A stretch of DNA of 64,000 nucleotides from contig NZ_JAMJXC010000003.1 in the NCBI RefSeq assembly GCF_023571765.1, positions 124,001 through 188,000 on the forward strand. The letters run 5' to 3'. How positions within the stretch are numbered: position 1 is the first letter of the stretch; every line of letters starts with the position of its first letter. Both the position numbers and the translations under genes were made by a program. The DNA comes from Xanthobacter aminoxidans. GTDB lineage: Bacteria > Pseudomonadota > Alphaproteobacteria > Rhizobiales > Xanthobacteraceae. The notes below the pieces were generated by a model. The model was given only the letters and a program-made list of their open reading frames with translations, had not been told where the DNA came from and did no database searches. This document shows, in pieces, positions 14,865 to 59,373 of this stretch.

Positions 14865-14867
14865 ACG

Positions 14868-15635: not shown

Positions 15636-15846
15636 CTTGCCCGCACACGTGCGTATCGTCGCGCGCGCGTGCTGAAGGCTTGCATTGCGGCGGCGCGCCT
15701 CCATCATGCGGCCGCCCGCCTTTTCATGAGCCCCGCGCCGTGGGGCTGTTTGTGTTTGGCGCGCCACGCGCTGTCGGTGCGTCCCGGGGCAGACGCGCTC
15801 CGGGGCAGCCGGCATTGCGGGCGCCGCGTTTGGAAGTGACCCTTTG

Positions 15847-17517
15847 ATGGCACCCTCGGAAGAACTGGTCTTCGCGCCTCTCGGCGGCGTGGGCGAGATC
15901 GGAATGAACCTCGGCCTCTACGGCTTCGGCCCGAAGAAGGCGCGGGAATGGCTTATTGTCGACCTCGGCATGAGCTTCGCCGGGGATGAGGCGCCCGGCG
16001 TCGACCTTGTGCTGCCCGACATCCGCTTCCTGGAATCCGAGCGCAAGAAGATCGCCGGCCTCGTGCTGACCCATGGTCACGAGGACCATATCGGCGCGGT
16101 GCTGGACCTCTGGCCGCGCCTCAAGTGCCCCATCTACACCACCCGCTTCACCGCCGGCCTCCTGGAAGCGAAGCGGGCAGGGGAGCCGGGCGCCCCCTCC
16201 GAACTGCCCATCGAGGTGGTGCGCGCGCGCCAGCCGGTGCAGATCGGCCCGTTCAGCGTCGAATTCGTGCCGGTGTCGCACTCCATCCCCGACAGCCATG
16301 CACTCGCCATCCGCACCAGGGCCGGGCTGGTGGTTCATACCGGCGACTGGAAGCTCGACCCGACGCCCCTCGTGGGCGAGGCCACCGACATCGCGCGGCT
16401 GAAGGCGCTGGGCGATGAGGGCGTGCGCGCCATCATCTGCGATTCCACCAATGCCATCCGCGACGGCATCTCTCCGTCCGAGGCGGACGTGGCGGCCTCG
16501 CTGAAGGCCATCGTCGCCAAGGCGAAGCACCGCATCGCCTTCACCACCTTTTCCTCCAACGTGGCCCGCATCCGCGGCATCGCCGAGGCGGCCTATGCCA
16601 ATGGCCGCGAGGTGGTGCTGGTGGGCCGGGCGCTGGAGCGCGTCATCGGCGTCGCCCGCGAGCAGGGGCTCTTGGACGGCATTCCCGCCTTTCGCGGCGC
16701 GGACGCCTACGGATATCTGCCGCGCGAGCGGGTGGTGGCCATCCTCACCGGCAGCCAGGGCGAGCCGCGCGCCGCGCTGCGCCGCATCGCCGATGACGAC
16801 CATCCCGAGATCGCCCTGTCGCCCGGCGATCAGGTGGTGTTCTCCTCGCGCACCATTCCAGGCAACGAGAAGGTGGTGAACCACATCGTCAACGCGCTCA
16901 TCAAGCGCGGGGTGGAGGTCATCACCGATCGCACCGCCCTCGTCCACGTCTCCGGCCATCCCCGGCGCGGCGAGCTGGAGGAGATGTACCGCATGATCCG
17001 CCCGCAGGTGGCGATCCCGGTGCATGGCGAGGCGCTGCACCTGCACGAGCACGCTCTGCTCGCCCGCCGTCTCGGCGTGCCGGAGGTGCTGAACTGCTAC
17101 GACGGCAACGTCATCCGCCTCGCGCCCGGCCCGGCCGAGCGGGTGGACGACGTGCCCTTCGGCCGCCTCTACAAGGACGGCCGCCTGCTGCTGGCCGAAG
17201 GCGCGCGTGCCATTCCCGAGCGGCGCAAGCTGAGCTTCGTGGGCGCCATCTCCATCGCCGTCGCGGTGAACAAGCAGGGCGGCCTTGCCGGCGACCCCTC
17301 CGTCGAGATCACCGGCGTGCCGGAGCGCGGGGAGGGGGGCGTGGACATGCTCGACCACGTGCTCGACACGGTGGTCGCCACCCTCGACAATCTGCCCAAG
17401 GCCCGCCGCCGCGATCCCGAGGCGCTGGCGGAGAGCCTGGAGCGGGCCGTGCGCTCGGCGGTCAATGCGGTGTGGGGCAAGAAGCCGGTCTGCCACGTCC
17501 ACGTGCTGGAGGTGTGA
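15847..17517 (+). CDS. rnj: Ribonuclease J
   Basis: Metallo-beta-lactamase/beta-CASP nuclease with 5'-to-3' exonuclease and endonuclease activity in mRNA turnover and rRNA maturation. The 556-residue product shows the zinc motif LTHGHEDHIGA (about residues 73-83), the later metal-binding VPVSHSIPDSHA, HTGDWKLD and HVSGHP, and the C-terminal domain. The ATG at 15847 is preferred to the in-frame TTG at 15844. It follows birA after about 210 non-coding bases, the common alphaproteobacterial order. Confidence 0.93.
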   Translation: MAPSEELVFAPLGGVGEIGMNLGLYGFGPKKAREWLIVDLGMSFAGDEAPGVDLVLPDIRFLESERKKIAGLVLTHGHEDHIGAVLDLWPRLKCPIYTTRFTAGLLEAKRAGEPGAPSELPIEVVRARQPVQIGPFSVEFVPVSHSIPDSHALAIRTRAGLVVHTGDWKLDPTPLVGEATDIARLKALGDEGVRAIICDSTNAIRDGISPSEADVAASLKAIVAKAKHRIAFTTFSSNVARIRGIAEAAYANGREVVLVGRALERVIGVAREQGLLDGIPAFRGADAYGYLPRERVVAILTGSQGEPRAALRRIADDDHPEIALSPGDQVVFSSRTIPGNEKVVNHIVNALIKRGVEVITDRTALVHVSGHPRRGELEEMYRMIRPQVAIPVHGEALHLHEHALLARRLGVPEVLNCYDGNVIRLAPGPAERVDDVPFGRLYKDGRLLLAEGARAIPERRKLSFVGAISIAVAVNKQGGLAGDPSVEITGVPERGEGGVDMLDHVLDTVVATLDNLPKARRRDPEALAESLERAVRSAVNAVWGKKPVCHVHVLEV

Positions 17518-17602
17518 GTTCTCTCCACCTTCTCTCCTGCGGAGGTCGTGTTTCTCGGCCCGCCCCGTTGCGCTATGGATCGGTGACGAACCGGAGGGAA
17601 AC

Positions 17603-18007
17603 ATGATCGGACGGCTCAACCACGTGGCCATCGCGGTGCGCGACATCGCGGCCGCCTCGGCGCTCTATCGCGACACGCTCGGCGCGGAGGTCTCCGCCGC
17701 CGTGCCCCAGGTGGAGCACGGCGTGACCACGGTGTTCGTGACCCTGCCCAACACCAAGATCGAGTTCCTGGAGCCGCTCGGCGCGGATTCGCCCATCGCC
17801 AAATTCCTGGAGCGCAATCCGGACGGCGGCATCCACCATCTGTGCTACGAGGTGGACGACATCATCGTCGCCCGCGACCAGCTCAAGGCCAGGGGCGCGC
17901 GCGTGCTCGGCTCCGGCGAGCCGAAGATCGGCGCCCACGGCAAGCCGGTGCTGTTCCTTCATCCGAAGGACTTCAACGGCACGCTTGTCGAGCTGGAGCA
18001 GGCCTGA
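17603..18007 (+). CDS. mce: Methylmalonyl-CoA epimerase
   Basis: Interconverts (R)- and (S)-methylmalonyl-CoA, between propionyl-CoA carboxylase and methylmalonyl-CoA mutase. The 134-residue product is a paired vicinal-oxygen-chelate (glyoxalase-like) fold. It begins LNHVAIAVRD with the first metal His, has GGIHHLCYEVDD, and ends GTLVELEQ with the metal Glu. The GGAGGG ribosome site is placed correctly before the ATG at 17603. Length is typical. Confidence 0.92.
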   Translation: MIGRLNHVAIAVRDIAAASALYRDTLGAEVSAAVPQVEHGVTTVFVTLPNTKIEFLEPLGADSPIAKFLERNPDGGIHHLCYEVDDIIVARDQLKARGARVLGSGEPKIGAHGKPVLFLHPKDFNGTLVELEQA

Positions 18008-18057
18008 TCCCCCCTCGCGGCGCCGGGACCCCGGCGCCGCCAGTCAAGGAAGACGCC

Positions 18058-18327
18058 GTGTCGATCGGTGCCGTCGTCGCCATCTATTTCATCGTGTGGT
18101 GGACCAGCCTCTTCGCCGTGCTGCCGTGGGGCGTGCGCTCCCAGGCCGAGAGCGCGGACGTCACGCCGGGCACCGATCCCGGCGCGCCGGTGCGGCCGCT
18201 CATGCTCTACAAGGTGATCGCCACCAGCCTCATCGCGCTCGTGGTCACCGCCGGCATCGTCTACATCATGACCAGCGGCATCATCGCGCTGGAAGACATT
18301 CCGCTGCCCTTCAAGACCGCGGAATAA
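18058..18327 (+). CDS. DUF1467 family membrane protein
   Basis: Small membrane protein of 89 residues with two hydrophobic helices (about 4-22 and 55-77). It belongs to the DUF1467 family commonly found after mce in alphaproteobacteria. Function is unknown. It contains the family-like FIVWWTSLFAVLPWGVRSQ stretch. Start is a GTG at 18058, 50 bases after mce. It converges on the GGDEF/EAL gene with only 15 bases between the stops. Confidence 0.82.
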   Translation: MSIGAVVAIYFIVWWTSLFAVLPWGVRSQAESADVTPGTDPGAPVRPLMLYKVIATSLIALVVTAGIVYIMTSGIIALEDIPLPFKTAE

Positions 18328-18342
18328 GCCCACCTACCGGCA

Positions 18343-21300
18343 TCAGTGCAGGGAGGTGCTGCTGATCGGGCCCGCGCCGCGCGGTGCGCCCGGGGCAGGC
18401 CCCGGCGCCAGAGGGCCGCTCAGCGCAAGGCGCAGCAGGCGGTCGCCCGTGACCGCGCGGCTGAACAGGTGGCCCTGGCCGAAGTCGCAGCCCCGCGCCT
18501 TCAGGAAGTCGTGCTGCCGCGGGTCCTCGATCCCCTCCGCCACCACCGAGAAGCCCAGCGCGCGGGCGATGGAGATGATCGCCGTGGCGATCTCCGCGTC
18601 GGCGGCGCGCGGCAGGTCGCGTACGAAGCTGCGGTCGATCTTCAGCTTGGAGATGGGGAAGCGCTTGAGATAGGCGAGCGAGGAATAGCCGGTGCCGAAA
18701 TCGTCCAGGGCGATGCGCACGCCGGTGTCCTTCAGCTGGCGCAGCTTGCGCTCGGCTGCCGCGCGGGCGTCGAACAGCAGGCTCTCGGTGATCTCCACCT
18801 CCAGCTTGTGCGCCGGCAGGCCGGTGCGGCGCAGAACGTCGTCCACGAACTCGCACAGGGCGCCGCGCTGGAACTGGCGCGGGGACAGGTTCACCGCGAT
18901 GAAGTCGAGGTCGGCGCCCTTGTCGAGCCATTCGGCCATCTGCCGGCAGGCGGCCTCCATCACCCAATTGCCGAGCGGCTCGATGAGGCCGGTTTCCTCG
19001 GCGAGCGGGATGAAGCGGTTGGGGGTCACGAGGCCGTGGGTCGGGCTCTGCCAGCGCACCAGCGCCTCGGTGCCGGTGATGCGGCCGGTGGCGAGGTTCA
19101 CCACCGGCTGGAAGTTCAGGATGAACTCGTCGCGGGCGAGGGCGCGCCGCAGGTCCGCTTCCATCTCCATCCGCACGCGGGCGCCGCGGGTGAGCGCCTG
19201 GGTATAGAAGGCGTAGCCGCCACGGCCGTGGGACTTCGCCTCCGCCAGCGCTGAATCCGCGTGCTGGAGCAGGCTCGCCGGCGTCTCGGCATCCTCCGGG
19301 AACAGGCTGATGCCGACGCTGGCGCCAAGATAGATTTCCCCGCCTTCGGGCATGGAGAAGGGGCGCCCCATCTCCTGGATGACGTGGTTGGCGAGGGTGG
19401 CGGCATCCTCCGGCCCGGAGATGCCTTCGAGGATGATGACGAACTCGTCGCCGCCATGGCGCCCGAGCGTGGCGCCGGCCTCCAGCTCATCCTGAATGCG
19501 CCGGGCGGCCATCTGCAGCACGGCGTCGCCGGCCATGTGGCCGAGGCTGTCATTGACGGTCTTGAAGCGGTCGAGGTCCACGAACAGCACCGCGCAGCGC
19601 GATCCGGGCCGGCTCAGCGCGAGGTCGAGCAGCGAGGCGAGGAGGGTGCGGTTCGGCAGATCGGTGAGCGGGTCGTAGTGGGCGATACGGTCCAGCTCGA
19701 ACTCGGAATGCTTGGCCTGGGTGATGTCCTGGAAGGCGCCGACGAAATTCTGGGCCGCGCCGCTGTCGTCATACACCGTGGTGATGTTGAGCTGCTGGAG
19801 GAAGATCTCGCCGTTCTTGCGGCGGTTCCAGATCTCGCCCTGCCAGGAGCCGGCGGTGGTCAGCTCGCTCCACAGGCTGCGGTAGAAGTCGCGGTCGTGC
19901 CGGCCGGAATGAAGGAGGCGCATGTTCTGGCCGAGGATTTCCTCCTCGCTGTAGCCGGTGATGCGCGAGAAGGCCGGATTGACGGCGGACACCTCGGACT
20001 TGAGATTCGTCACCACCAGCCCGTCATAGGAATTGGCGAACACGGCCGCGGCGAGCCGCAGGTGGCGCTCGGTGTGCTTCGATCTGGTGATGTCGGCGAG
20101 GAGGCCGACGGCGCGGCTGAGGGCGCCGGCGGCGTCGCGGGCGGCGAGGCCGTGCCAGCGGAAGTCGTGATAGCTGCCGTCCGGCCGGCGCAGGCGGATG
20201 TCCAGCTCCAGCGTGGGCGCCCCGCCGCGCAGGAAGGCCTTCCACGCAGCCGCGACCTTGCGGCGGTCGTCCGGGTGGAGCAATTCGTGCCACGGCCGCC
20301 TGATGTCCACGGCCTCGTCGGCGCCCACGCCGAGCATCTCCCGCGCCCGCTGCGAGAGATAGAGGCTGCCGGTGCGGATGTTGAGATCCCACACGCCCTG
20401 GTCCGAGCCCTTCACCGCGAGGCCGAAGCGCTCCTCGCTCTCGCGCAGGGCGGCCTCGGCGGCGCGACGGGCGGAGATGTCCTGCGCCACCAGCAGGAGG
20501 TGGTCTGCCGCGCCATCCGCGTTGCGCACCAGAGAGAAGGTGAAGGCCAGCCAGACGGCCGAGCCGTCCGGGCGCACGAGGCTTTCCTCCGTCTCGATCT
20601 CGGCCGACCGGCCGTCGAGGAGCGGGCCGATCACATCGGCGCCGCCGGAGGCGGGGTCCGGCTCCCGCAAGTGCCACATGCGTTCGCCGATCAGCGCGCT
20701 CGCCGGCCGGCCGAGCATGCGGCAGGCCTTGCCGTTGGCCCGCAGGATGGTGCCGTCGAGGTCGAGGTGGAGGATGCCGGTCGCGGCCTGGTCGAAGGCG
20801 GCGCGGAAGCGCGCTTCGGCCTCGCCCACCGCGCGGGCGGCCGAAAGCTCGCGCGCCGCCTCGCGCATCCGCGATTTCTGCAGCAGGCCACGCCCCACCG
20901 CCACCGCGAGCAGCAGCAGCACGCAGGCGAGCGCCGCCGAGAAGAAGGCGGAGGTGCGGGCGCCGCCCAGAACCTCGTCGCGGTCCACCTTCAGCACGAG
21001 GGAGGATTGGTCGCCGGGGATGGGCGCGCGCACCGCCAGAACGGCGCGGCCGGAGGGATCGGCGCCGGCGCCGGTCGCGCCGGGGCTGTCGGTGCCGGCG
21101 GCGAAGGGATAGGGGTCGGCCACGAAGGTCCGTGGCAGCGGGGCGGCCTGATCGCGCGAGACCGCCGAGGCGACGCGCACGCCGCCGCGCGGGTCCGGCG
21201 CCACCAGCAGCGCCTCGGCGCTGCGGGCGGTGCGGAACACGGCCGAGAGCATGGGATGGGCTTCCGGCCGCACCGCCGACTGCAGGAACAGGACGCAGCA

Positions 21301-49532: not shown

Positions 49533-49644
49533 GGCGGCGGTGCCGACCCGCTCCGGTTATGAGCGTATCGAGGTCGTTCAGCGCCCGGCGTCAGCGACAT
49601 TTAATTCCGGAATCCTGTTGGTGCTCCAGCGACAAAGAGCGATC

Positions 49645-49649
49645 GCGCT
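49645..49649. repeat. Putative target-site duplication, left (GCGCT)
   Basis: GCGCT at the left border matches GCGCT at 58178-58182 outside the right border. It overlaps the terminal T of the TG dinucleotide by one base, so the exact boundary is uncertain by one position. Confidence 0.5.
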
Positions 49650-49699
49650 GACTCTGTAGACACTCTTTGACGATCTCCGGCGGTCCCTGTCGATCTTTT
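49649..49699 (+). repeat. Element end with MuA-type binding repeats (left in window)
   Basis: TG at 49649, CTCTTTGACGATCT from 49663 and CTGTCGATCTTTT at 49687-49699. The same motifs occur in inverted orientation at the other end, as expected for transposase-binding sites. By gene order this corresponds to the Mu right end. Confidence 0.65.
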
Positions 49700-49755
49700 G
49701 CGGGATTTCGCGACATTGAGCGGGATTCCGTGGGATGGGGCTGTGCGCGCGATCG

Positions 49756-50088
49756 TCACCGGCGCGAGCGCAGCCGCTTCCAATAGGCGTAAGCGGCAGT
49801 TCGGGACGGGGTGCGGTTCGAGCCGAACTGGATGCGGCACGCCTCAAGCGCTTCCACCAAGCGACCGCGACCAAAGCTTTCGGCCAAGAAGGTGGTAACC
49901 TCCATATCTCGCTCCACCGGAGACCTCGACGGCACGGCGGGGACCGCTGGGGCAGGACTATCGTGAGCTTCTCGCCGCTGACATTCGAGAAGCGCGGCGT
50001 AGTCGGTAATGGGGATCGTCACCACGGCCACGCCCGCGATGGTCGCATAGAGAGGAAATGGCTCGGGTTCGTTGGCGTGGTCTTTCAT
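49756..50088 (-). CDS. Hypothetical protein in the Mu-like element
   Basis: 110-residue protein, no recognised domain. The C-terminal half (SRSPVERDMEVTTFLAESFGRGRLVEALEACRIQFG, then RTPSRTAAYAYWKRLR) looks like a compact helical module ending in a basic tail, as in small phage proteins with a recognition helix. ATG at 50088 is chosen because the longer frame adds an unlikely leader. No strong ribosome site. It occupies the cargo position near the Mu right end, divergent from the next small gene. Confidence 0.55.
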   Translation of the reverse strand: MKDHANEPEPFPLYATIAGVAVVTIPITDYAALLECQRREAHDSPAPAVPAVPSRSPVERDMEVTTFLAESFGRGRLVEALEACRIQFGSNRTPSRTAAYAYWKRLRSRR

Positions 50089-50179
50089 GGGGTCGATGAC
50101 CTCAGCGGAACAGGTGATCGTCGCCGCAGCTCGCGCTATATTCGACGGGTAGAGGAACACACTCAGGGGATTTGCAGAC

Positions 50180-50398
50180 GTGAGCGCGGCGCTTCAGGAA
50201 TGGGAAGTCAAGGTAGCGCTCTCCCGCCGCTATTACGATCGGTTCGGCGAGCAGTCCCTTGGGCACTTCAATGACTTCGCACAGGCCGCGGACGAGATGA
50301 TTCTCGTGATGGAGCGCTCTCTGGAGCGCGGCACTCCGATGACAGAGGGCGAGCTGGCTTGGCTCAACCGGCATGTTCGTGCGGACGTGATCTACTGA
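50180..50398 (+). CDS. Small hypothetical protein in the Mu-like element
   Basis: 72 residues, GTG start at 50180, acidic and helical in appearance (QEWEVKVALSRRYYDRFGEQ, DEMILVMERSLERG). Residue composition is protein-like, but no family is recognised. It is one of only two plus-strand genes in the element (the other is the repressor) and is divergent from the gene at 49756-50088. Possibly an accessory cargo gene. Confidence 0.5.
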   Translation: MSAALQEWEVKVALSRRYYDRFGEQSLGHFNDFAQAADEMILVMERSLERGTPMTEGELAWLNRHVRADVIY

Positions 50399-50492
50399 TC
50401 GGGACACCGTGCTTGCCGACGCGCCTTCTCAGGGTGCCGCATTTCCCGATTTACCGTTGAACCGTTCGGTTCCGACTTCGTCGGAGTGGAAA

Positions 50493-50554
50493 GCCGGCCG
50501 CCGTCTGCGTCGCGCTCTTGCCGCAGCGCTACGCGTTCAGTGACGGCGGCCGGC
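50493..50554. repeat. 13-bp inverted repeat
   Basis: GCCGGCCGCCGTC at 50493-50505 and its exact complement at 50542-50554, with a 36-base loop. It lies in the 204-base gene-free gap downstream of the head protein gene; no coding sequence is seen there. Confidence 0.6.
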
Positions 50555-50561
50555 CGCCTCG

Positions 50562-50595
50562 GCCGCACTCCCCATGGAACCGGAAGGAGTGCGGC
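50562..50595 (-). terminator. Hairpin after the head protein gene
   Basis: GCCGCACTCC (50562-50571) pairs with GGAGTGCGGC (50586-50595). It begins 8 bases beyond the minus-strand head gene stop, in the right place to end that transcript, though without a T-run. Confidence 0.45.
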
Positions 50596-50602
50596 GAGCC
50601 GG

Positions 50603-51517
50603 TTAGGACAGCCAGGCAGACACGATGGGCTTGGCTGTGCCCGCCCATTCGTTCTGCACCGCCACGGAGGTGCCACCCACCGTGACAATGCGCGTGCCAT
50701 TGTTGAGCAGGCGCATGGCCGCGCCTTCAAGCGCGGTCGGCACGACGATGATGTTCGGTTTCACACCCAGCGGGCGGCCGCCGTCGCCGCGCAGGTTCAT
50801 CATCGCGGCGCGCGCCGCCTCGTAGTTCTCGGCCGTGAGTTCTGCCTTTGAGGCATAGGCGAGCTGCCACAGGCCAAAGCCGGCATTGGATCGGGCACGC
50901 ACGCCATAGACGTACTCGTCCTTCCAGAACACGTTGGCGTCGCCATCGTCATTCAGCGGCGTGAGCCGGTAGGGAATGCGCTCCTGATAGACCATCGGCT
51001 TGATAGCCCGGCTGCAATCCAGCAGGAACCAAGCCGGCCCGGAGCCGGCCTGCATGTTGCTGGCGGACACCACCTCGCCGGCCGCGTTCTGCACCGGATG
51101 GTCGGTGTCGAAGAAGTATTGCTTGTCGTAGCAGGTGGTGGTGAAGCCCTGCGAAAGCAGAGAAAAGACAAGCTCATCGGGATGCTCGGCCGCGCTCTTT
51201 CCCATCTCCTCCATTATGGGCGAGAAGACCCCGTAGCGATCATCTTCGATGTAAGTCCGGCCAACGCTGACCGTGCTTTCGAACTTCTTGTTCGTGATCG
51301 CATAGGAGTGGGCGGCGAGGTTGTGCACCACCCTATCGCCCACCCACTCGCGCATCTTGGGAAACTGGCCGAGCCACCCATAGGTCTCAGCCGAGGCCGA
51401 AGACGGCACCACCATCGCAACGTCGCGATAGGCGCTGTCCGCGCCGCCATAACCCTTGGTGAAGGCGGCGTTGAAGGCATTGAAAAGGCTGTCGAGATTG
51501 CCGCGATTGACAAGCAT
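50603..51517 (-). CDS. Mu-like major head subunit (gpT)
   Basis: 304-residue major capsid protein of the Mu gpT family. Seen: LFNAFNAAFTKGYGG near the N-terminus, YGWLGQFPKMREWVGDR, VSVGRTYIEDDRYGVFSPIMEEMG and YGVRARSNAGFGLWQLAY, all characteristic of Mu T. Length equals that of the phage protein, and the frame is intact. It follows the protease gene by three bases, as in Mu. No portal or terminase gene is present to use such a capsid. Confidence 0.9.
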   Translation of the reverse strand: MLVNRGNLDSLFNAFNAAFTKGYGGADSAYRDVAMVVPSSASAETYGWLGQFPKMREWVGDRVVHNLAAHSYAITNKKFESTVSVGRTYIEDDRYGVFSPIMEEMGKSAAEHPDELVFSLLSQGFTTTCYDKQYFFDTDHPVQNAAGEVVSASNMQAGSGPAWFLLDCSRAIKPMVYQERIPYRLTPLNDDGDANVFWKDEYVYGVRARSNAGFGLWQLAYASKAELTAENYEAARAAMMNLRGDGGRPLGVKPNIIVVPTALEGAAMRLLNNGTRIVTVGGTSVAVQNEWAGTAKPIVSAWLS

Positions 51518-51520
51518 GGC

Positions 51521-52498
51521 TCACGCTCCAGTTTCAGTGAAGGCGCGGGCCTTCGCATAGTCTTCGGCGGTGACGCCCATGCGTTCGCAGATAACGCGCT
51601 CCTCTTCAGAGAGGTGCGTCGCTCTGTGCTGCGCCGCGATCTGGCGGCCCGTCGCCTTCGGATCGACAATCCGGTTGAAGGCGCCACGGGTGCGCTCAAC
51701 GAAGGCATCGAAGGCGGGCTTGTTCACTGTGCAGAGGGCGACCCCCCAGGTGCGCAGCGCGGGCGGCAAGTTGCCGTGCCCGATCTGGCGGGACACGTGG
51801 TCTTCCGCCGCCTGCCGCGAGATGCCGCAATTCAGCCGGTTGACTTCGGCGACGGCATTTTCGAGCACCCCTATGGGCACAAACTGGCTGGGATCGGGCT
51901 GGGAGGCGTGGGCGGAAGCGGTCAGGTCGCCCACCTTCGCGAGGATGTCGGCGGCGGTAGCATCGGCGGCGAGCCCGAGAAGGGTTCGCAAGTTGTTGAG
52001 CAAGGCGTCGACTTCGGTCGGGTCCATGGGTGTCTCCGCACGCGCAAGGGCGGTCAGTTCAAGGTTTGGATGGTTGGTGAGGGCGGCGCGAAGGAGGCAC
52101 GTCACGGTGCCATCCGTCGTGTGGTGGAAGACCGGCGAGAGATAGCGATACTCACGTTTGGCGAGGAAGGCGGAAGCCGTCTCTGTCCATTTCACCCGGC
52201 CCCAGATGCCGTTGGCGCGGGTTTGCAGCGCATCGATCCATCCAGCGGCAGGAGCGGGTTGACCGTTCTTCGGTGCAAGGTCGGTCTGATGCTCGTAGTC
52301 CACCACCATGGCGCGAGAGCCGGCCATCAGCTGGGTTTGCCGAAGCACCGGAGCCGCGTCGCCGAGGCGATAAGGCCCCCGACCGTCGCGGCCGGAGAAG
52401 GTGCCGAGCGGCAGGAGATGGATCCATGTTTCCGCAGCACCTGTCGCCTCGGTGCAAAGCGCGATGCTGGTGCGGGAGGGGGCGGACGGCGCGGCCAT
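51521..52498 (-). CDS. Mu-like head protease/scaffold (gpI)
   Basis: 325-residue phage protease of the Mu I family. The N-terminal protease part has HLLPLGTFSGRDGRGPY, AMVVDYEHQTDL, AAGWIDAL and FLAKREYRYLSPVF. The rest, from about residue 150, is the scaffold-like region. In Mu it processes the procapsid and its C-terminal product (Z) scaffolds assembly. Frame intact. It overlaps the start of the upstream Mor-type gene's stop by one base, and the head gene follows at once. Confidence 0.88.
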   Translation of the reverse strand: MAAPSAPSRTSIALCTEATGAAETWIHLLPLGTFSGRDGRGPYRLGDAAPVLRQTQLMAGSRAMVVDYEHQTDLAPKNGQPAPAAGWIDALQTRANGIWGRVKWTETASAFLAKREYRYLSPVFHHTTDGTVTCLLRAALTNHPNLELTALARAETPMDPTEVDALLNNLRTLLGLAADATAADILAKVGDLTASAHASQPDPSQFVPIGVLENAVAEVNRLNCGISRQAAEDHVSRQIGHGNLPPALRTWGVALCTVNKPAFDAFVERTRGAFNRIVDPKATGRQIAAQHRATHLSEEERVICERMGVTAEDYAKARAFTETGA

Positions 52499-52875
52499 CA
52501 GGCTCCCTCTCTGTCTTTGCCGGTCCGGCCGTACTCAAAAAGTATCCGGTGGACCGTCGCAGCGGAGCAGCCCGCCGCGCGGCAAATCTCATCGTAAGAC
52601 AGGCCACGGTCCCGATAGGCGAGAACACGCCAAGTCCGTGCGACCGGGACCTTAAGGTACTCACCGCCCTTTGCTGCCGAAAGTCGTTCTAGGGCGTCAT
52701 TCCCGAGGATGGGAAACAAAACGCTGGTGTCGATGGATTTTCTTACGCCGGTTGGAACATAAATGCGGCTTCCGGATGCGTACTCTATCAATTTTAGCGT
52801 CATATCCGGGCCAATGGAAGATATTAGCTCTTCCAATTCGCGCGGATGTGGCGGAAGTGTTGCTTGGTCGTACAT
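52498..52875 (-). CDS. Mor-family transcriptional activator, copy 2
   Basis: 125-residue protein matching the Mor/C activator family of Mu: a dimerisation part (MTLKLIEYASGSRIYVPTG) and a C-terminal HTH (RVLAYRDRGLSYDEICRAAGCSAATVHRILFEYG). Mor or C would switch on middle or late genes. It is preceded by a palindrome CTTCGCGAAG at 52899-52908 and by a hairpin that ends the other Mor-type gene. It immediately precedes the protease and head genes. Confidence 0.82.
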   Translation of the reverse strand: MYDQATLPPHPRELEELISSIGPDMTLKLIEYASGSRIYVPTGVRKSIDTSVLFPILGNDALERLSAAKGGEYLKVPVARTWRVLAYRDRGLSYDEICRAAGCSAATVHRILFEYGRTGKDREGA

Positions 52876-52958
52876 CAGGTTCGCATCTCGTGTTCGACCT
52901 TCGCGAAGTTTCGTACTTCTCTCGTTTGATGATTACGTCATGCCCCAGCATTGAGGTA

Positions 52959-52978
52959 ATGCCCCTAAGCGGGGGCAT
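52959..52978 (-). terminator. Hairpin between the two Mor-type genes
   Basis: ATGCCCC, six-base loop, GGGGCAT, beginning 15 bases after the stop of the first Mor-type gene. It may separate the transcription of the two activators. Confidence 0.45.
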
Positions 52979-52992
52979 ATCGAGCGATACGA

Positions 52993-53385
52993 TCAGGTCC
53001 GAGGCGCTCCGACGATTCCTTTGCCCCTTATCCGCTTCGCACCGAAATCGCCTAATATCCGGTAGACCGTTCGTTCAGTGGTCCCAGCGCGGCGAGCAAT
53101 TTCGGCGACGGACAGACCTTTTGCTCGGTAGATGAGAATTCGCCAGCTGAGGGCACGGGGCACCATGAATGCAAGGCCCCCAAATTTTCCGGCCAACTTC
53201 TCGCAGGCATTCGCGCCTATCAGGTCCGATATTTTTGACTGATGAAAATCGCGCGAGCTTACATAAATTCTGGTTCCGCCGAATGCCTCGATAAGTACTA
53301 ATGCAGCATGTGGACCAATGAGTGCGACGAGCTTTTCTTCGCCGCCAGTCGGAAGTGGGAGGCCGCTATTTTGGTCCAAGCGCAT
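52993..53385 (-). CDS. Mor-family transcriptional activator, copy 1
   Basis: 130-residue Mor-family protein with ALVLIEAFGGTRIYVSS, then ACEKLAGKFGGLAFMVPRALSWRI and the HTH LSVAEIARRAGTTERTVYRILGDFG. It is closer to textbook Mor than the second copy. The two are clearly related but diverged. In Mu, Mor controls the middle promoter and the related C protein controls late promoters, so this pair may be Mor and C. Start ATG at 53385. Confidence 0.85.
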   Translation of the reverse strand: MRLDQNSGLPLPTGGEEKLVALIGPHAALVLIEAFGGTRIYVSSRDFHQSKISDLIGANACEKLAGKFGGLAFMVPRALSWRILIYRAKGLSVAEIARRAGTTERTVYRILGDFGAKRIRGKGIVGAPRT

Positions 53386-53826
53386 CTCGAATTTGAACGG
53401 GGGCTGATATCCGCTACCGGACGATGCGCTATAGAAAGCTCATGCTCGCACCTGACAGCAATGATGACAGGTGCAGGCTGAGAGGTTCGGTTTCGGGAGG
53501 GCGATATCTGTGCAGCGCAGGACGATCCCGGCCCGTGGCTCTCAGGCGTGGCCGCCAAGGGGGTACGCCATCCTCCCCGTAGCGCAGGCCCGCAGCCAAG
53601 GCGGGATCAACGAACCGGACCGGCGAATTTCCCGGTTGTCAGGGCGGCCACGATCACAGCGTGCCATCAGTTTCGGGAGGGCGCAAATTCAGGGCTTGGA
53701 TGGGCCAACCGCCGCGCTGTGCCTGAGCGGAGCCGTTGAGAGGCGAATAAGAGGCCTAAGATGCCACTTGGAGCGGCGACGGCTCGGCGGGTAGGGAATG
53801 TGTGCGCAACGGAAGGAAAAGGGGCG
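53386..53826. other. Gene-free 440-base region inside the element
   Basis: No convincing gene on either strand; open frames here have low-complexity, Arg/Gly-rich translations. It holds a 14-base direct repeat GTTTCGGGAGGGCG at 53490-53503 and 53670-53683. In full-length Mu-like phages, the interval around Mor carries further early genes, so this may mark lost sequence. It also likely holds the promoter of the Mor-type gene. Confidence 0.5.
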
Positions 53827-54264
53827 TCACCGCGCCCCGGATGCGTTTTCGGCTACGCGGGCCAATTTCCGCCGGATCATCGCCCGAAGGCCATTGATGG
53901 CTTTGGCGGCCGTCTTGCGATCCGCGAAGCGCAGGGCGCTGATTTGATAGCTGCGTTCCAGCCAGGAGTTCAGCGCCGCCTCGTTGTCGTTCTCCGCCCA
54001 CTGTTGCCAGAGCTGGCGAAGCAGTTCCACCTGACTCGGTGTTGCCATGCCCGGGCGCTCGCCATAGGTGCGTTTGGTCCAGTCGGACCGGAAGCCGAGC
54101 GAGGCGAAATAGATCATCGCGGCATCGAAGCCGCGCTGATCGAGGTCGCGGGCGCTCATGGCGCCGCCGCACTTATAGAGAATGGCGCGGTATGTGATTT
54201 CGTCGAGCTTCAACCGCGCCTTGGCGACATGGAGCAGCCCGATCTGCTTGCTATTCAGCGGCAT
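53827..54264 (-). CDS. GemA/gp16-like regulatory protein (DUF1018)
   Basis: 145-residue protein of the Mu gp16/GemA family. It begins MPLNSKQIGLLHVAKARLKLDEITYRAIL and has LGFRSDWTKRTYGERPGMATPSQVELLRQLW, the family core, ending with a basic stretch. In Mu it modulates host gene expression and early/late events. ATG at 54264 is chosen because it starts the conserved domain; the frame is open further upstream. It overlaps the end of the next upstream gene by 14 bases. Confidence 0.85.
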   Translation of the reverse strand: MPLNSKQIGLLHVAKARLKLDEITYRAILYKCGGAMSARDLDQRGFDAAMIYFASLGFRSDWTKRTYGERPGMATPSQVELLRQLWQQWAENDNEAALNSWLERSYQISALRFADRKTAAKAINGLRAMIRRKLARVAENASGAR

Positions 54265-54526
54265 GGGCGGTGCCCTTGACGCCCGAGTTTCGGAGCGAAT
54301 GAAGAAGTTGATGATGTCGGTGCGCGATCTCGCCGATGTTTTCCAAGCTGCTTGCAACTGCGCCAGCGATAAGGCCGGCACCGATCATGGCCTTGGGACT
54401 CCAATCTGTATTTTCGGAGAGGAGTGATTCGCTAATGAAGTGGGAAATATGTGCAAGGTTGTCCGCTATGCAGGATATTTCTTCGTGTCCGCTCTCAAAC
54501 AAATTCGGATCTATGAGGTGAAACAT
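54251..54526 (-). CDS. Small hypothetical phage protein
   Basis: 91 residues, no known family. It starts MFHLIDPNLFESGHEEISCIADNLAHISHFISESLL and has a hydrophobic short stretch AMIGAGLIAGAVASSLENIGEIAH. A textbook AAAGGAGA ribosome site lies six bases before the ATG at 54526. Position between the B gene and gemA matches the small early orfs of Mu-like phages. Function not assigned. Confidence 0.7.
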   Translation of the reverse strand: MFHLIDPNLFESGHEEISCIADNLAHISHFISESLLSENTDWSPKAMIGAGLIAGAVASSLENIGEIAHRHHQLLHSLRNSGVKGTAHAAE

Positions 54527-54539
54527 TGGCGTCTCCTTT

Positions 54540-55295
54540 TTAGGCGTATTGCCGGATTGCAGAACGGAACTGCGGAAGAATTTCGATAGCGTCGAGTATG
54601 TGGGATGCGCGAATGACCTTTTCGGCTCCAAGCTGACGAGCCATTTTGAGGACGCGCACAACGCCATCGGCATGGAATTTGGCGCCTATGGCCCTCAAAA
54701 GGCGGTAGGCATCCATGCCCTCCGTCCCGAAGGCGCTGGCGAGAAGGTCTGCGTCATCCTCAAGAATGGATTCGATCGGCTCTCGGAAAGTGACGCGGCG
54801 ACTGATTTGGGCGAATGCCCCGTGATCGGTGTTAACTCGTTTCAGAACTTCGTTGTTTCCGCAGAAAACGAAGGAGATATTGCCGCCATCCTCGACGCTC
54901 ATATGCAGAAGCTGACGCAACGATTTGAGCGGAAGATTTTGAGCTTCATCGAGAATTACGATGTGGGGGCTCGATGGCGGCATTTCACTGTCTTGACTGC
55001 TCCAGAGTGGCACGTTGAACTTGAGCAGCCGGTGCTCAAGATCTGAGATGCTGCCGCCGCCGTAGAGCCCGACCTGCAGGCACATCTCTTCCAACAATGA
55101 CCGCAGCGACCCCGCGAGGATGGGCGTGATTGTGAACATCGCCGTCAGCGGATGGCTTTCCTTGTAGGCATTGAGCGCGACCGTCTTGCCGACCCCCGGC
55201 ACGCCGATGATGGCCGCGTTCGTTTCCATCCGGCGCGCGAGGTCGATCGTCCGGCTCACACGCTGGGCTACGGACGTTTCGACGAAGAACTTCAT
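54540..55295 (-). CDS. MuB-like AAA+ ATPase, transposition target protein
   Basis: 251-residue ATPase. Walker A GVPGVGKT (residues 31-38), Walker B IVILDEAQ (about 112-119), sensor-like FCGNNE. It is of the MuB/TniB/ExeA type, which binds target DNA, activates the transposase and gives target immunity. Shorter than Mu B (312 residues) because the N-terminal helix-turn-helix is missing. It overlaps the end of the transposase gene by four bases. Confidence 0.9.
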   Translation of the reverse strand: MKFFVETSVAQRVSRTIDLARRMETNAAIIGVPGVGKTVALNAYKESHPLTAMFTITPILAGSLRSLLEEMCLQVGLYGGGSISDLEHRLLKFNVPLWSSQDSEMPPSSPHIVILDEAQNLPLKSLRQLLHMSVEDGGNISFVFCGNNEVLKRVNTDHGAFAQISRRVTFREPIESILEDDADLLASAFGTEGMDAYRLLRAIGAKFHADGVVRVLKMARQLGAEKVIRASHILDAIEILPQFRSAIRQYA

Positions 55296-57301
55296 GCTCG
55301 GCCTCCCATGATCCTCTTGTGCGCCGCCTCCAACTGGGCCGTCCGCTCCCTGTGTTCGCGTTCCTTTTGCGAGTGAATGCGTGCTTGCCTCTCTTCCGGT
55401 AGCTCGGCGAGGCCTTGGGCGATCTCGGCGGCGGTGGTGGAAATAGACAGGGTGGCGGCGATCGGAGCCGGAGCGGCCGGCGGCAGTGTCGCCGCAAGGC
55501 GCATCACCTCGGCAGTTGTGTCCACGTCCGGCGCGATCTGATCGAGCTGACGAATGGCGCTCTTATGCAAGCGGTCTCGGCGCGAGGATTCGCGTGCGCC
55601 GGCACGGTCCAAAAGAGCATAATCCCGCTCCGGATGAGCGAAGCCGAAGACGTTACCCTTTTCGTCCAGGAGCGGCAGGATCGAGGGCGACTCGAATTTC
55701 GGAACCAGGATCGAAACGCGCGCTGACAGGTAGGTGGTGAGTTCGTCGCAGGTCCACCGTTGGCCGCCGAATGAGATGCAGCCCTGTCGAACCTCTCGGT
55801 TCTGGGTGGTGGCAAAGACGGTGTGGAGCTGGCGGGCATCCACGTCGATTCTCTGCCAGCCTCCGGCGAGGGCCTCATTGTAGGCCGCGCGGGGCGACCG
55901 CCCCTTCAGCGCACCTTTCTGGGGCAGGCTTTCGTAAACCGCCAGAGATCCCGCGATGATCGCGCGTAGATCGTCCAGCGTGCCGGAGAATGGCTCGGTA
56001 GGCCGGCCTACCTTGGCCGTCGTCTTGTTCATCCGGTCCCCGCCAACCCATCCTTGGATGGTTCGGAAATACCGTTGCTCCAAAACACCGAAGAGCCCCT
56101 CGATGGGCTTTGCCTGAGCGTTGTAGGGACGGGCCCTCGTAACGTGGGATGAATCATCTCCACCGATGACCATCACTCGCTCAACCAGCTTCATGGCGTC
56201 GTCCATGAAGTCGGCCCAGAGGTATTCTTTTCCATTATCAAAATAGAGCCCGCGTGGGACGCCCCATGCTGGATCCTGCGTCATCGCAACGAAGCTGCGA
56301 ATCAGGTCCGCGTTGCGGACGTTTTTCCCCTTTTCGAGAAGCACGAGGTCGAAGCGCACTCGGTTTGTCGCGGAATCTTGCCACGCGATGGCCTTAGGCC
56401 AAGCCTCGGTGCCATCTTCGCGTCGCATGACGATATCGAGGTGATGCACGTCTCCGAAGACGGTATCCATCGGGGCAAGGCCGTCGCGGGTGCGCCGCAC
56501 GCGCGGCCGCGCGTCCTCATGGGCTTTGCGGTCTTTGTTGAAGATCGCGACTTTTCGGAAGGTGGCTTCCGCTTCAATGAAGCGGCGTGGGACCGCGAGG
56601 GCGGCGGCGGGCGGCCGGTCCCATCCCGCCAGGGCGGAGAGGACGCGCAGCTTGTCGCTGGCGAGGGCGCCGATGATCTTGGCTGAGGCGCCGTCTTTAT
56701 AGAGCCCTCGGATGTGCTGGCGCAGTTCGTGGGCGATCCGCTCTTTCTGTGGCAGATCTAACGGTGCTGCCGTGTCCCACGGCTTGGATATGACGACGCG
56801 GCGGGTGTTTTTGTCGCGCCGGGCCTGAGGGCAGAGGCCGGCCGCCCCATGCAGCTCATAGGCCGCCAATTTCCGTTCGACCGTCTTGCGGGATGGCTGG
56901 AATGGCCGTCCCTGCCAATCCACGTGCGTGCGGCCAATGATATCGGCGACCGCAGCACCGCGCTCGCGGGAGAACTTGGGCTGGGCGGCGGCGGGCGCGA
57001 GCACGATGCTCCACCAGTTGCGTTCGTCCCGTGCCGTGGAGAGGTCGGAAAGAGGTCTCTCATAGGCCCCTGAGAGCACTCTCAGCCGCTCTTGAAGGTC
57101 AGGCGGCAGGGAGGAGACGAGAACCTCGTAGCAGAGGCCTGAGCGACCGCCCCGCCCCCGAACCGTGCGAACCACTAGGGTGGCACCGCGCCACAAGGAT
57201 ACCGGATCGCGATGGACACGTTGCAAAGCTCGATGAGCTTTTTGGCGCGAGATGCCGGCAATGGCTGCCAAGTCACAGGTATCCAGCCAAGCCATAATCA
57301 T
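55292..57301 (-). CDS. MuA-like DDE transposase
   Basis: 669-residue transposase. N-terminal winged-helix DNA-binding part (LDTCDLAAIAGISRQKAHRAL), a second end-binding domain, then the DDE catalytic core: Asp in GDVHHLDIV (about 284/289), Asp355 in LYFDNGKEY and Glu in KPIEGLFGVLEQ (about 401). The C-terminal Arg/Glu-rich helix would contact B. Length is close to Mu A (663). Frame intact, so the element may still be able to transpose. ATG at 57301; another ATG at 57295. Confidence 0.93.
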   Translation of the reverse strand: MIMAWLDTCDLAAIAGISRQKAHRALQRVHRDPVSLWRGATLVVRTVRGRGGRSGLCYEVLVSSLPPDLQERLRVLSGAYERPLSDLSTARDERNWWSIVLAPAAAQPKFSRERGAAVADIIGRTHVDWQGRPFQPSRKTVERKLAAYELHGAAGLCPQARRDKNTRRVVISKPWDTAAPLDLPQKERIAHELRQHIRGLYKDGASAKIIGALASDKLRVLSALAGWDRPPAAALAVPRRFIEAEATFRKVAIFNKDRKAHEDARPRVRRTRDGLAPMDTVFGDVHHLDIVMRREDGTEAWPKAIAWQDSATNRVRFDLVLLEKGKNVRNADLIRSFVAMTQDPAWGVPRGLYFDNGKEYLWADFMDDAMKLVERVMVIGGDDSSHVTRARPYNAQAKPIEGLFGVLEQRYFRTIQGWVGGDRMNKTTAKVGRPTEPFSGTLDDLRAIIAGSLAVYESLPQKGALKGRSPRAAYNEALAGGWQRIDVDARQLHTVFATTQNREVRQGCISFGGQRWTCDELTTYLSARVSILVPKFESPSILPLLDEKGNVFGFAHPERDYALLDRAGARESSRRDRLHKSAIRQLDQIAPDVDTTAEVMRLAATLPPAAPAPIAATLSISTTAAEIAQGLAELPEERQARIHSQKEREHRERTAQLEAAHKRIMGGRA

Positions 57302-57498
57302 GCGTCGCTGGATCGAAGTTCAGGCTTTATCCCGAGTGCCACAGCGATGCGATGTGACACCCCTCTCTTTGCTTTCAACTGGCCGTTGAGCACCGCATAG
57401 ACGGTCCGAGGTGAAAAGCCGCGGTCGCGTGCCCATTCTCTGACCGATATCCCCTCCGCCTCAAATCTTGCCTTGCGCTGTTCCAACGTGCTTCTCAT
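57298..57498 (-). CDS. Ner-like small DNA-binding protein
   Basis: 66-residue helix-turn-helix protein (ISVREWARDRGFSPRTVYAVLNGQLKAKRGVSHRIAVALGIKP). It corresponds in size and position to Mu Ner, which represses early and repressor promoters during lytic growth. It is followed by the transposase with an overlapping start and is divergent from the repressor at 57540. Confidence 0.8.
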   Translation of the reverse strand: MRSTLEQRKARFEAEGISVREWARDRGFSPRTVYAVLNGQLKAKRGVSHRIAVALGIKPELRSSDA

Positions 57499-57509
57499 TG
57501 GCTAAAGCC

Positions 57510-57527
57510 TGCGAATTTGTGTTCGCA
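57510..57527. promoter_or_regulatory. Operator-like palindrome between ner and repressor
   Basis: TGCGAA, six bases, TTCGCA: a perfect inverted repeat in the 41-base spacer between the divergent Ner-like and repressor genes. A natural binding site for either. Confidence 0.5.
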
Positions 57528-57539
57528 TTATGCCAACTT

Positions 57540-57935
57540 ATGGTGCGCGATTTGTCAACAGATAATGATATCGGATCGCCTGACGTCGCCCACGAGCTCG
57601 CCAGCCATGGGGTGACAGCGGATGTGGTTCTGAATCGCGTAGTTGAGCGTCTGTCTCTAAAGACGGACACCGATTTGGCGCGCGTGCTGGGTGTATCGAA
57701 AACGACTATATCGACTTGGCGAAGGCGCAATAAGATACCGTATGAAAATCTACTAGTGCTTCACTATCGCGGAGTAGTCGATTTCGTATATGCGATACTT
57801 GGTGTTTCGCTCGATAACCATCTAGATAACCTTTTGGTCGTCGAGGAGGCTGAAGCGGAGCAGCAGGCGGAGTTCTTTCGCAAGGTACGGCTGGGTATGG
57901 AGCGGCTGAAAAAGCAGCGGAAAGACCCGATGTAG
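57540..57935 (+). CDS. CI-type phage repressor
   Basis: 131-residue protein with an N-terminal helix-turn-helix of the phage CI-repressor kind (LKTDTDLARVLGVSKTTISTWRRRNKIPYENLL, about residues 39-71) and a C-terminal charged helix. It plays the part of the Mu c repressor: divergent from ner-A-B and close to the outer end. No peptidase domain is present. The ATG at 57540 is chosen since it is the first in-frame start beyond the Ner-like gene. Confidence 0.78.
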   Translation: MVRDLSTDNDIGSPDVAHELASHGVTADVVLNRVVERLSLKTDTDLARVLGVSKTTISTWRRRNKIPYENLLVLHYRGVVDFVYAILGVSLDNHLDNLLVVEEAEAEQQAEFFRKVRLGMERLKKQRKDPM

Positions 57936-57957
57936 GGTTACCAATTGGGTTACCAAT
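57935..57957. repeat. Tandem 11-base repeat after the repressor gene
   Basis: GGGTTACCAAT at 57935-57945 and 57947-57957 (period 12), directly after the repressor stop. ATTGGGTTACCAAT across the joint is also palindromic. The 242 bases from here to the right end contain no gene. Confidence 0.6.
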
Positions 57958-58111
57958 CTATTCAGCCGTCGTCACAGTTTGACAAACGGGTCCCCAAAAA
58001 GCTGAGCAAAATCATAATGCTCCGCATTTGGTTGTCGATCTTTGATCCCGTTGGTCCGCCGTTGCTGATTTGGGAACCCCAACTTTGATGCGTTTGCAAC
58101 GCTTTGCGGGG

Positions 58112-58177
58112 AAAAGATCGACAGAGAGTGGCGGGGAGCTGGAACCGCAAGAACGACAAAGAGCGTTTTCGCCCCCA
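58112..58177 (-). repeat. Element end with MuA-type binding repeats (right in window)
   Basis: Reading inward from the CA at 58176-58177: TG, then CTCTTTGTCGTTCT from 58163 and CTGTCGATCTTTT at 58124-58112. These mirror the left end. A further TGTCGATCTTT lies in the opposite orientation at 58033-58043. By gene order this is the Mu left end. Confidence 0.65.
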
Positions 58178-58182
58178 GCGCT
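58178..58182. repeat. Putative target-site duplication, right (GCGCT)
   Basis: GCGCT immediately after the terminal CA, identical to 49645-49649. See the left copy for the one-base ambiguity. Confidence 0.5.
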
Positions 58183-58207
58183 TCCACCACACGTCGGGGA
58201 CAAAAGA

Positions 58208-58222
58208 GAACATATTGCGAAC
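58208..58222. promoter_or_regulatory. LexA (SOS) box of recA
   Basis: GAAC-N7-GAAC, the alphaproteobacterial LexA site, 65 bases before the recA ATG. The element's right end lies only 30 bases upstream, so the box itself is intact and remains on the recA side. Confidence 0.85.

Positions 58223-58287: not shown

Positions 58288-59373
<1,086 letters not shown>

Follow-up and report, generated by a model that had tools for sequence, protein, structure and literature searches.

Compact Mu-type transposable elements resident at the recA and lexA promoters of Alphaproteobacteria

According to an excerpt of PMC7350765, phage Mu is among the most indiscriminate mobile elements, with a degenerate 5-bp target, and has apparently shed Tn7-type targeting partners. 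A transposable phage of Pseudomonas has a wide distribution with hotspots (PMC5977238, in excerpt). Here we describe a Mu-type element in a 64,000-nucleotide stretch of the Xanthobacter aminoxidans genome (contig NZ_JAMJXC010000003.1, positions 124,001 to 188,000; the whole stretch is called the window, and its own numbering is used throughout). The element is intact-looking, has matched ends, occupies positions 49649–58177 (8,529 bp) and lies directly upstream of recA. It and its relatives share with the transposable phages Mu, RcapMu, RC1 and JBD25 the A, B, gemA, mor, I and T genes, the Mu-type transposase and the TG..CA ends. Unlike these phages, which are 36.7–39.6 kb long, the compact elements measure 6.5–10.4 kb, gave no match to packaging, portal, tail tube or lysis genes and duplicate 4 bp of target; furthermore, they occupy one site class in one orientation, in contrast to the degenerate 5-bp target given for Mu in the excerpt of PMC7350765. 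The window element is an intact-looking member of a lineage of compact Mu-type transposable elements. The fixed site class is the main surprise, Mu being nearly indiscriminate.

The P4, PICI, PLE and PICMI families are integrase-type islands, which the compact elements resemble in size class and, as we propose below, may resemble in their dependence on phage virion genes. The capsid-forming PICI (cfPICI) have their own packaging genes and integrase-type integration. Like them, the compact elements are satellite-sized and carry their own capsid genes; unlike them, they have a Mu-type transposase, no terminase or portal was found in them, and many have a tape measure. Tn7 combines a DDE transposase and an AAA+ ATPase with a preferred site and orientation and a TnsD/TniQ selector. 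The compact elements share the transposase, the ATPase and the preference for a site and an orientation, but their site is an SOS promoter, and TnsA and TnsD/TniQ were not found in the protein scans of the window. Satellite families are reviewed in PMC11389934, where cfPICI capsids form three clades within phage capsids and where, in the excerpt available, no Mu-type transposable satellite is named. In a survey of open-licence papers by titles and abstract openings, preprints not covered, we recognised no report of a Mu-like element at recA or lexA or of a transposable satellite, and found none that describes tape measures among satellite-carried genes.

Extent of the window element and its lineage

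The left terminus (L1) reads TGGGGGCGAAAACGCTCTTTGTCG from position 58177 inward (58154–58177, minus strand) and fits the L-terminus pattern of the relatives, TGGAGGCG..CTTTTTGTCG. The right terminus reads TGACTCTGTAGACACTCTTTGACG from position 49649 inward (49649–49672, plus strand). Both start with TG and have CTCTTTG at positions 15–21, and a 26-nt inverted match between 49674–49699 and 58112–58137 (81%) is the second motif common to the two ends. The initial annotation, made from the letters of the window, had proposed a Mu-like 8.5-kb element with such ends and a second border motif, and both proposals are confirmed. It had also placed GCGCT on both flanks. The GCGC part is the 4-bp target duplication (distal copy at 49645–49648, recA-side copy at 58178–58181), whereas the T does not belong to it, the left T being part of the TG terminus. 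An end search that required strict 5-bp duplications missed these ends, and a 4-bp search recovered them. The right terminus scores low on the L-terminus matrix (1.5), and better-scoring sites exist in the stretch. Mu-type A and B, TG..CA ends and a target duplication are all present in the element, whose A occurs once in the window genome.

Relatives were collected with a profile of A proteins from related genomes, which was run against 84,980 species genomes and IMG/VR. The best 80 of 274 and the best 80 of 119 confirmed stretches were kept, and 167 loci were annotated with hidden Markov models derived from the elements and from Mu, RcapMu, RC1 and JBD25. A search with the window A alone gave no match in the first viral-contig scan or in the phage collection. 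Among 200 related genomes, A was found in seven, the window genome included, and in each of the six other carriers the ~6–9 kb after A include gemA, a mor-type gene and genes for head or tail proteins. Wider sampling gave matches in one of 385 genomes of the class and in four of 397 genomes of the order; these are loci already known (G873, judged by its contig number and position, appears to be L025) and hence add no new statistics.

Where both ends were found, the length is ~6.5–10.4 kb (8,529 bp in the window, 8,968 bp in the relative G150, and 10,164, 9,814, 10,418 and 6,511 bp in others). Ends were sought in 18 loci. In G065, L104, G085 and L028 the best match to the left-end matrix, taken as the right end, comes with a perfect 4-bp duplication, and in ten other loci no right end was accepted. 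Five members, the window element included, have 4-bp duplications; G150 has a 5-bp one (TGTGT), G100 matches at three of four positions and G010 has none. The expectation that the same gene set would be found between matching ends elsewhere is borne out for the same kind of gene set in other hosts, with duplications mostly of 4 bp in place of the 5 bp expected.

In a tree of A proteins with 123 rows, the window element belongs to a compact clade of 57 rows (SH-like approximate likelihood ratio support, SH-aLRT, 89). None of the 57 has a terminase or portal gene in the sequence covered, and all 28 rows that bear such genes fall outside the clade. The tree leaves out loci numbered above L154, A matches with an E-value above 1e-40 and A proteins below 430 aa. 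Three loci that carry two names (G010, G100 and G065 are L033, L024 and L043) were counted once each, the label ‘full’ includes Mu, RcapMu and RC1, and the label ‘na’ stands for a flank gene that is other, not identified or beyond the contig edge. The support of the compact clade is modest, the tree was made by a quick method, and several of its branches are long. The models are able to detect such genes: of 45 loci retrieved through their T, 34 gave a match to terL, portal or F. Two numbers speak against a simple interpretation of the missing genes: in full loci the first terminase or portal gene lies at a median of 9.1 kb (up to 11.5 kb) after the start of A, and only 35 of the 57 rows cover at least 11 kb. 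As the first such gene can lie 11.5 kb from A, its absence is weak evidence for the remaining rows, and this measure would overlook a phage whose early region is long.

An ordinary Mu-like prophage that is decaying or has suffered a deletion, with its frames intact by chance, would likewise lack most virion genes, and degenerate relatives do exist (A is split in L040 and short in L065). However, the compact layout and the site class recur across genera, no row with a terminase or portal falls inside the compact clade, the ends and duplications are intact in several members, and most pairs show stronger conservation of T than of A. We regard decay as very improbable. The initial annotation had left the choice between a deletion derivative and a satellite; a one-off deletion is refuted because the lineage recurs, and the satellite, with a putative helper, is the alternative that we favor. 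What recurs is a satellite-sized mobile element without an autonomous virion gene set.

The recA and lexA site class

An element is found immediately upstream of recA in 10 loci and of lexA in 11, and these 21 loci come mostly from different genera of Alphaproteobacteria. All 21 elements have the same orientation, their left end being turned toward the operator and their A–B operon reading away from it. Each locus has a GTTC-N7-GTTC LexA operator beside recA or lexA, within 1.6 kb upstream of A. The left terminus lies 6–65 bp past the operator in 16 loci (median 31.5 bp) and 27–48 bp past it in 14 of them; this count leaves out G181 and L027, whose left termini are guessed, and L040, L054 and L075, to which none was assigned. 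Among the remaining loci with at least 1 kb of upstream sequence, a LexA box is found in none of the 19 that bear a terminase or portal, in none of the 10 of the Mesorhizobium type that have A and B only, and in four of 74 others. The recA/lexA site class is well supported. Near-random insertion, the habit of Mu-like phages, is not what these loci display, the counts being of residence sites and not of fresh insertions.

The window itself records more than one such event. Its recA gene (58327–59373, plus strand) is preceded by a GTTC-N7-GTTC operator (58208–58222, minus strand) located outside the element, 30 bp from the left terminus; this motif has two matches in the 64-kb window, against 1.1 expected by chance. 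We found recA in 13 of 14 genomes of the genus. Besides the window genome, 11 have upstream regions free of the element, all with the identical 15-bp operator; these regions are the empty sites that the initial annotation suggested looking for. G010, the other member of the genus concerned, has its own element upstream of recA. At 49623–49648 (minus strand), adjoining the right end of the window element, is what is left of the left terminus of an older element, which matches that of G010 at 26 of 26 bp, and beside it an L2-like site (~49595–49610) resembles one of L104 (14 of 16 bp). If the element and one GCGC are removed, the remaining 9 + 22 bp read as the left terminus of G010. The present insertion has split this older left end (49595–49648 and 58178–58186). 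Since the window element sits inside an older left terminus, the recA promoter has been struck at least twice. The SOS promoter site, the LexA box and the older end, as well as the conserved terminal gene at 49756–50088 described below, had been overlooked in the initial annotation.

Within the A tree, an inner clade of 31 rows contains 19 at recA or lexA, 11 rows with A and B only that sit elsewhere, and L029, which has a LexA box near the contig edge and no recA or lexA match in the sequence covered. On well-supported branches the recA and lexA labels need at least four and at least three changes, respectively, so that the elements seem to treat the two LexA-controlled genes as equivalent.

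From the site, the spacing and the orientation we infer that the transposition complex is likely guided to LexA-controlled promoters, through either the operator or bound LexA. Several points count against such guidance. The left termini were assigned by eye. Since a LexA box is to be expected at recA and lexA anyway, the box counts are not independent of the gene counts. The SOS clade includes eleven Mesorhizobium/Chelativorans rows, with A and B only, that sit elsewhere, and the recA/lexA site is therefore not absolute. Finally, selection after random insertion could yield the same pattern. In that case there would be no targeting: insertion would be random, as in Mu, and copies at recA and lexA would persist, the site being harmless or coupled to the SOS response. 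The A+B-only subclade located elsewhere would fit this explanation as well. It is less easily reconciled with the single orientation in 21 loci and the gap of 27–48 bp in 14 of 16, with the repeated use of one recA promoter, where the later element went into an older left end, and with the existence of another repeated site in a related clade, nrdA in four loci. We consider it unlikely.

The A+B-only loci are L034–L038, L048, L051, L053, L058, L061, L070 and L080, all of Mesorhizobium or Chelativorans (L080 is outside the tree), and the 10 that cover 1 kb upstream have no LexA box there. This lineage seems to have lost its virion genes and its site together.

More distant members of the compact clade reside, in the same orientation, at nrdA (L057, L062, L063 and L118, from Zoogloea and viral contigs), ftsK (L064) and groES (L049). 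The nrdA call rests on Pfam for L062, on the same protein start for L057 and L063, and on like antisense frames for L118, and 30 of the 57 rows have no assigned flank gene. These sites would be expected if the elements were drawn to strong promoters of stress genes in general and not to LexA operators. On the other hand, both of the flank genes identified in the 31-row clade are LexA-controlled, with switching between them, and we see this broader preference as a possibility, although a doubtful one. A separate locus, L076, has a LexA-like box ~1083 bp upstream of A, beside what by eye is an oxidoreductase gene, and is possibly another SOS-type site.

Gene content, structural genes and a possible helper

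The element reads from right to left in the window. From the left terminus the order is rep (divergent), ner, A, B, a small open reading frame (ORF), gemA, mor1 and mor2, followed toward the right terminus by I, T and a terminal gene with a helix-turn-helix (HTH). Nine of the ten proteins scanned were assigned a Pfam or PHROG family, the terminal ORF being the only one without. The families confirm the proposed repressor, Ner-like, A, B, GemA, two Mor-type, protease and head genes, and the frames of A, B, I and T run without interruption. On the plus strand, rep (57540–57935, start codon inferred) encodes a short HTH repressor (PF07022, E 5e-11 on the longer ORF 57468–57935) in which no peptidase domain was found. 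The other genes named are on the minus strand. A ner-like HTH gene (57298–57498; phrog_925, E 2e-24) precedes A (55292–57301), a Mu-type transposase of 669 aa (phrog_310, E 6e-45; no Pfam match). D284, D355 and E401 are invariant in the alignment of A, and we take them, from the MuA motif, to be its candidate DDE triad. B, the AAA+ target-delivery ATPase (54540–55295; PF13401, E 2e-14; phrog_296, E 1e-28), is followed by the small ORF (54251–54526, no family match) and by gemA (53827–54381; PF06252, E 2e-21), the true start of which is probably further in. Two Mor-type late activators come next, at 52993–53385 (phrog_836, E 1e-22) and 52498–52875 (phrog_836, E 2e-18; in Pfam this one matches HTH models only and not Mor). 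The head maturation protease I (51521–52498; PF10123, E 5e-69) is near full length, matching positions 5–335 of the 339 of phrog_328, and T (50603–51517; PF10124, E 1e-125) is the major head protein. A putative 72-aa ORF on the plus strand (50180–50398) has no family match. In the window element we found no match to terL, portal, F, G, tube, sheath or lysis genes, and it does not carry the complete virion, packaging and lysis set of a Mu-like phage. Pfam and PHROG scans of the ten window proteins gave no TnsA or TnsD/TniQ, although a selector without a family model would escape them.

The terminal gene (49756–50088, minus strand; orf134 family) encodes a small protein with a C-terminal HTH-like domain and an FG..RTPSRSA motif. 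Five of the first six relatives have a homolog, G181 being the one without; it is the last gene in four and lies ahead of the tape measure in G150. The predicted structure has a mean pLDDT of 78, with blocks of 87–96 from residue 61 onward, and fold comparisons with PDB and BFVD gave nothing significant; a mariner transposase DNA-binding domain, which came first in PDB, was discounted at E 2.6. The protein might conceivably be a small terminase or a target selector. In elements of Acetobacteraceae the HTH domain occurs in tandem repeats (L046, 5792–6493; L047, 11734–12177), which suggests recognition of a longer DNA site.

In the sequence covered, the 21 recA/lexA loci, 15 of which extend at least 11 kb past the start of A, have no match to terminase, portal, F, G, tube, sheath, baseplate, fibre or lysis genes. 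Structural genes are nonetheless present in 13 of them (major capsid in 12, protease in 11, tape measure in 7). The window element has I and T. Own capsid genes are thus found as in cfPICI, whereas the packaging genes and integrase-type integration of cfPICI are not: there is no terminase or portal match, and a Mu-type A stands in place of the integrase. The capsids belong to three families (gpT, a phrog_1005 type and, in G010, a protease–capsid fusion), not all of them unrelated, as gpT and the fusion are weakly similar (PF25209). Between its T and tape-measure genes, L104 encodes an extra virion structural protein (phrog_1731).

In the T tree, one clade among the phage T proteins (97/96) unites six of the nine element T proteins (window, G150, G181, L030, L039 and L104) with L202 and L203, and those of L026, L105 and L032 are placed elsewhere. 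L202 and L203 were given the label of elements for their gene order, in which I, T and the tape measure are neighbors, and have no A in the sequence covered. Between the window and G150, G181, L030 and L039, four of six pairs, T is 61–66% identical and A 35–45%; the corresponding values are 50% and 49% for L104 and 49% and 40% for L026. Such conservation of T over A suggests selection on the head protein.

The tape measures, too, were compared with those of phages. The siphovirus-type ones are of 590–660 aa in four elements versus 824–1231 aa in four phages, and that of G181 is collinear at both ends with the one of its co-resident phage, its middle being shortened (595 versus 824 aa). A general rule of short tails was rejected, as the myovirus-type tape measures of elements are not shorter than those of phages. 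The idea survives as a suggestion for the siphovirus type alone, and if L203 is an element its tape-measure frame, open for at least 1,216 aa, counts against even that.

Mu portal genes occur in 27 of the 200 related genomes, in four of the seven carriers versus 23 of the 193 others (Fisher one-sided p = 0.007, with kinship ignored and the 23 being uninspected matches). The four co-resident phages carry A, B, gemA, terL, portal, F, I and a capsid gene. Among cultured bacteria, Rhodopseudomonas palustris JSC-3b harbors an element together with a portal-bearing Mu-like prophage. In G100 and G181 the protease is most similar to that of the element's own co-resident (65%, versus 58% to that of G010, and 60%, respectively). 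Taken together, the missing packaging genes, the conserved head genes, the portal co-occurrence and the one shortened tape measure favor the interpretation of the elements as satellites, which may travel as parasites of larger phages.

A number of observations pull the other way. Eight of the 21 loci have no structural gene (L025, L027, L028, L040, L054, L065, L075 and L077). The sequence of L025 and L054 ends 4.2 and 3.1 kb after the start of A, and L040 and L065 are those with a split and a short A; L027, L028, L075 and L077 cover ~12 kb. The ratio of T to A identity comes from pairs of elements only, with no baseline from full phages. The myovirus-type tape measures have 688 (G100), 701 (G085) and ~757 aa (G065), versus 653, 672 and 710 aa in phages. 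The G085 protease is 36% identical to that of its co-resident versus 58% to that of G100, and the protease–capsid fusion of G010 gave no match in this comparison. The window genome (G000) has no Mu portal. A resident helper was looked for in the window genome, and none was found, gpT occurring there in the element alone.

The main rival explanation for the cargo is interference with other phages, whereby protease, capsid and tape-measure decoys would poison the assembly of an incoming phage and the element itself would go unpackaged. Tab, for example, targets the tape measure to block tail assembly (PMC10884400, in excerpt). The short proteases of ~200 aa (G100, G181, L031) and the protease plus tape measure set of G085 fit poisoning as well as they fit hijacking. 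However, in the window copy the protease is near full length and the capsid protein is complete, and the elements have kept A, B and their ends, so that they seem mobile, and their spread across species needs a vehicle. We find interference rather improbable.

Two further kinds of loci were encountered. In L027, a lexA-adjacent element of Chelativorans, A and B are followed by a CRISPR-like array (13627–19500) with 89 copies of a 24-mer in 6.1 kb, spaced by 64–67 nt, which may lie inside or outside the element. L085 (7866–13937), L087, L090, L157, L159 and L162–L164, from Lachnospiraceae and viral contigs, are Mu-type loci with A, B and sometimes gemA, then I, T and mostly a terS-like gene on the opposite strand. 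L085 has no terL or portal model match before other genes begin, and the genes ahead of its A resemble RAMP-type CRISPR genes by eye. The T proteins of these loci form one clade, and they are possibly an independent compact family in Firmicutes.

Proposed life cycle and its meaning

Movement by A and B is well supported by the anatomy of the element, judged from its genes and ends. Beyond this, we propose that the element is probably a satellite that relies on a full Mu-like helper. It would replicate with its own A and B, and the Mor-type activators would turn on a small head and tail set consisting of the protease, the major capsid protein and, in many members, a tape measure. The helper would supply terminase, portal, connectors, tail and lysis functions, and the particle would be built on the element's own shell or ruler.

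The switch of this cycle may lie outside the element. Of 11 repressors scanned, 10 have HTH matches (L077 has none) and none has a peptidase domain, whereas in some sister phages the upstream gene is matched by the lexA model and probably encodes a LexA-like repressor. The lack of an SOS-cleavable domain suggests that SOS control is supplied by position. LexA-controlled transcription would enter the left end antisense to rep and in the sense of A–B. That the place beside the LexA operator provides the SOS signal is a tentative proposal, which we would put below even chances. More tentative still is the complete scenario, in which a Mu-type lineage has regained Tn7-like protein-guided targeting and reads LexA at its strongest operators as a landing mark, and in which landing in one orientation wires a transposable satellite, with its own capsid or tail ruler and the parts of a helper, into the SOS switch.

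The apparent loss of Tn7-type targeting in the history of Mu becomes testable with a Mu-type lineage that keeps to a single site class and orientation. If the elements are satellites, they would be phage satellites whose mobility comes from transposition and whose cargo is a selection of virion genes, tape measures among them. The link to the LexA operator, if true, would be a route by which a mobile element joins the SOS response of its host by position alone.

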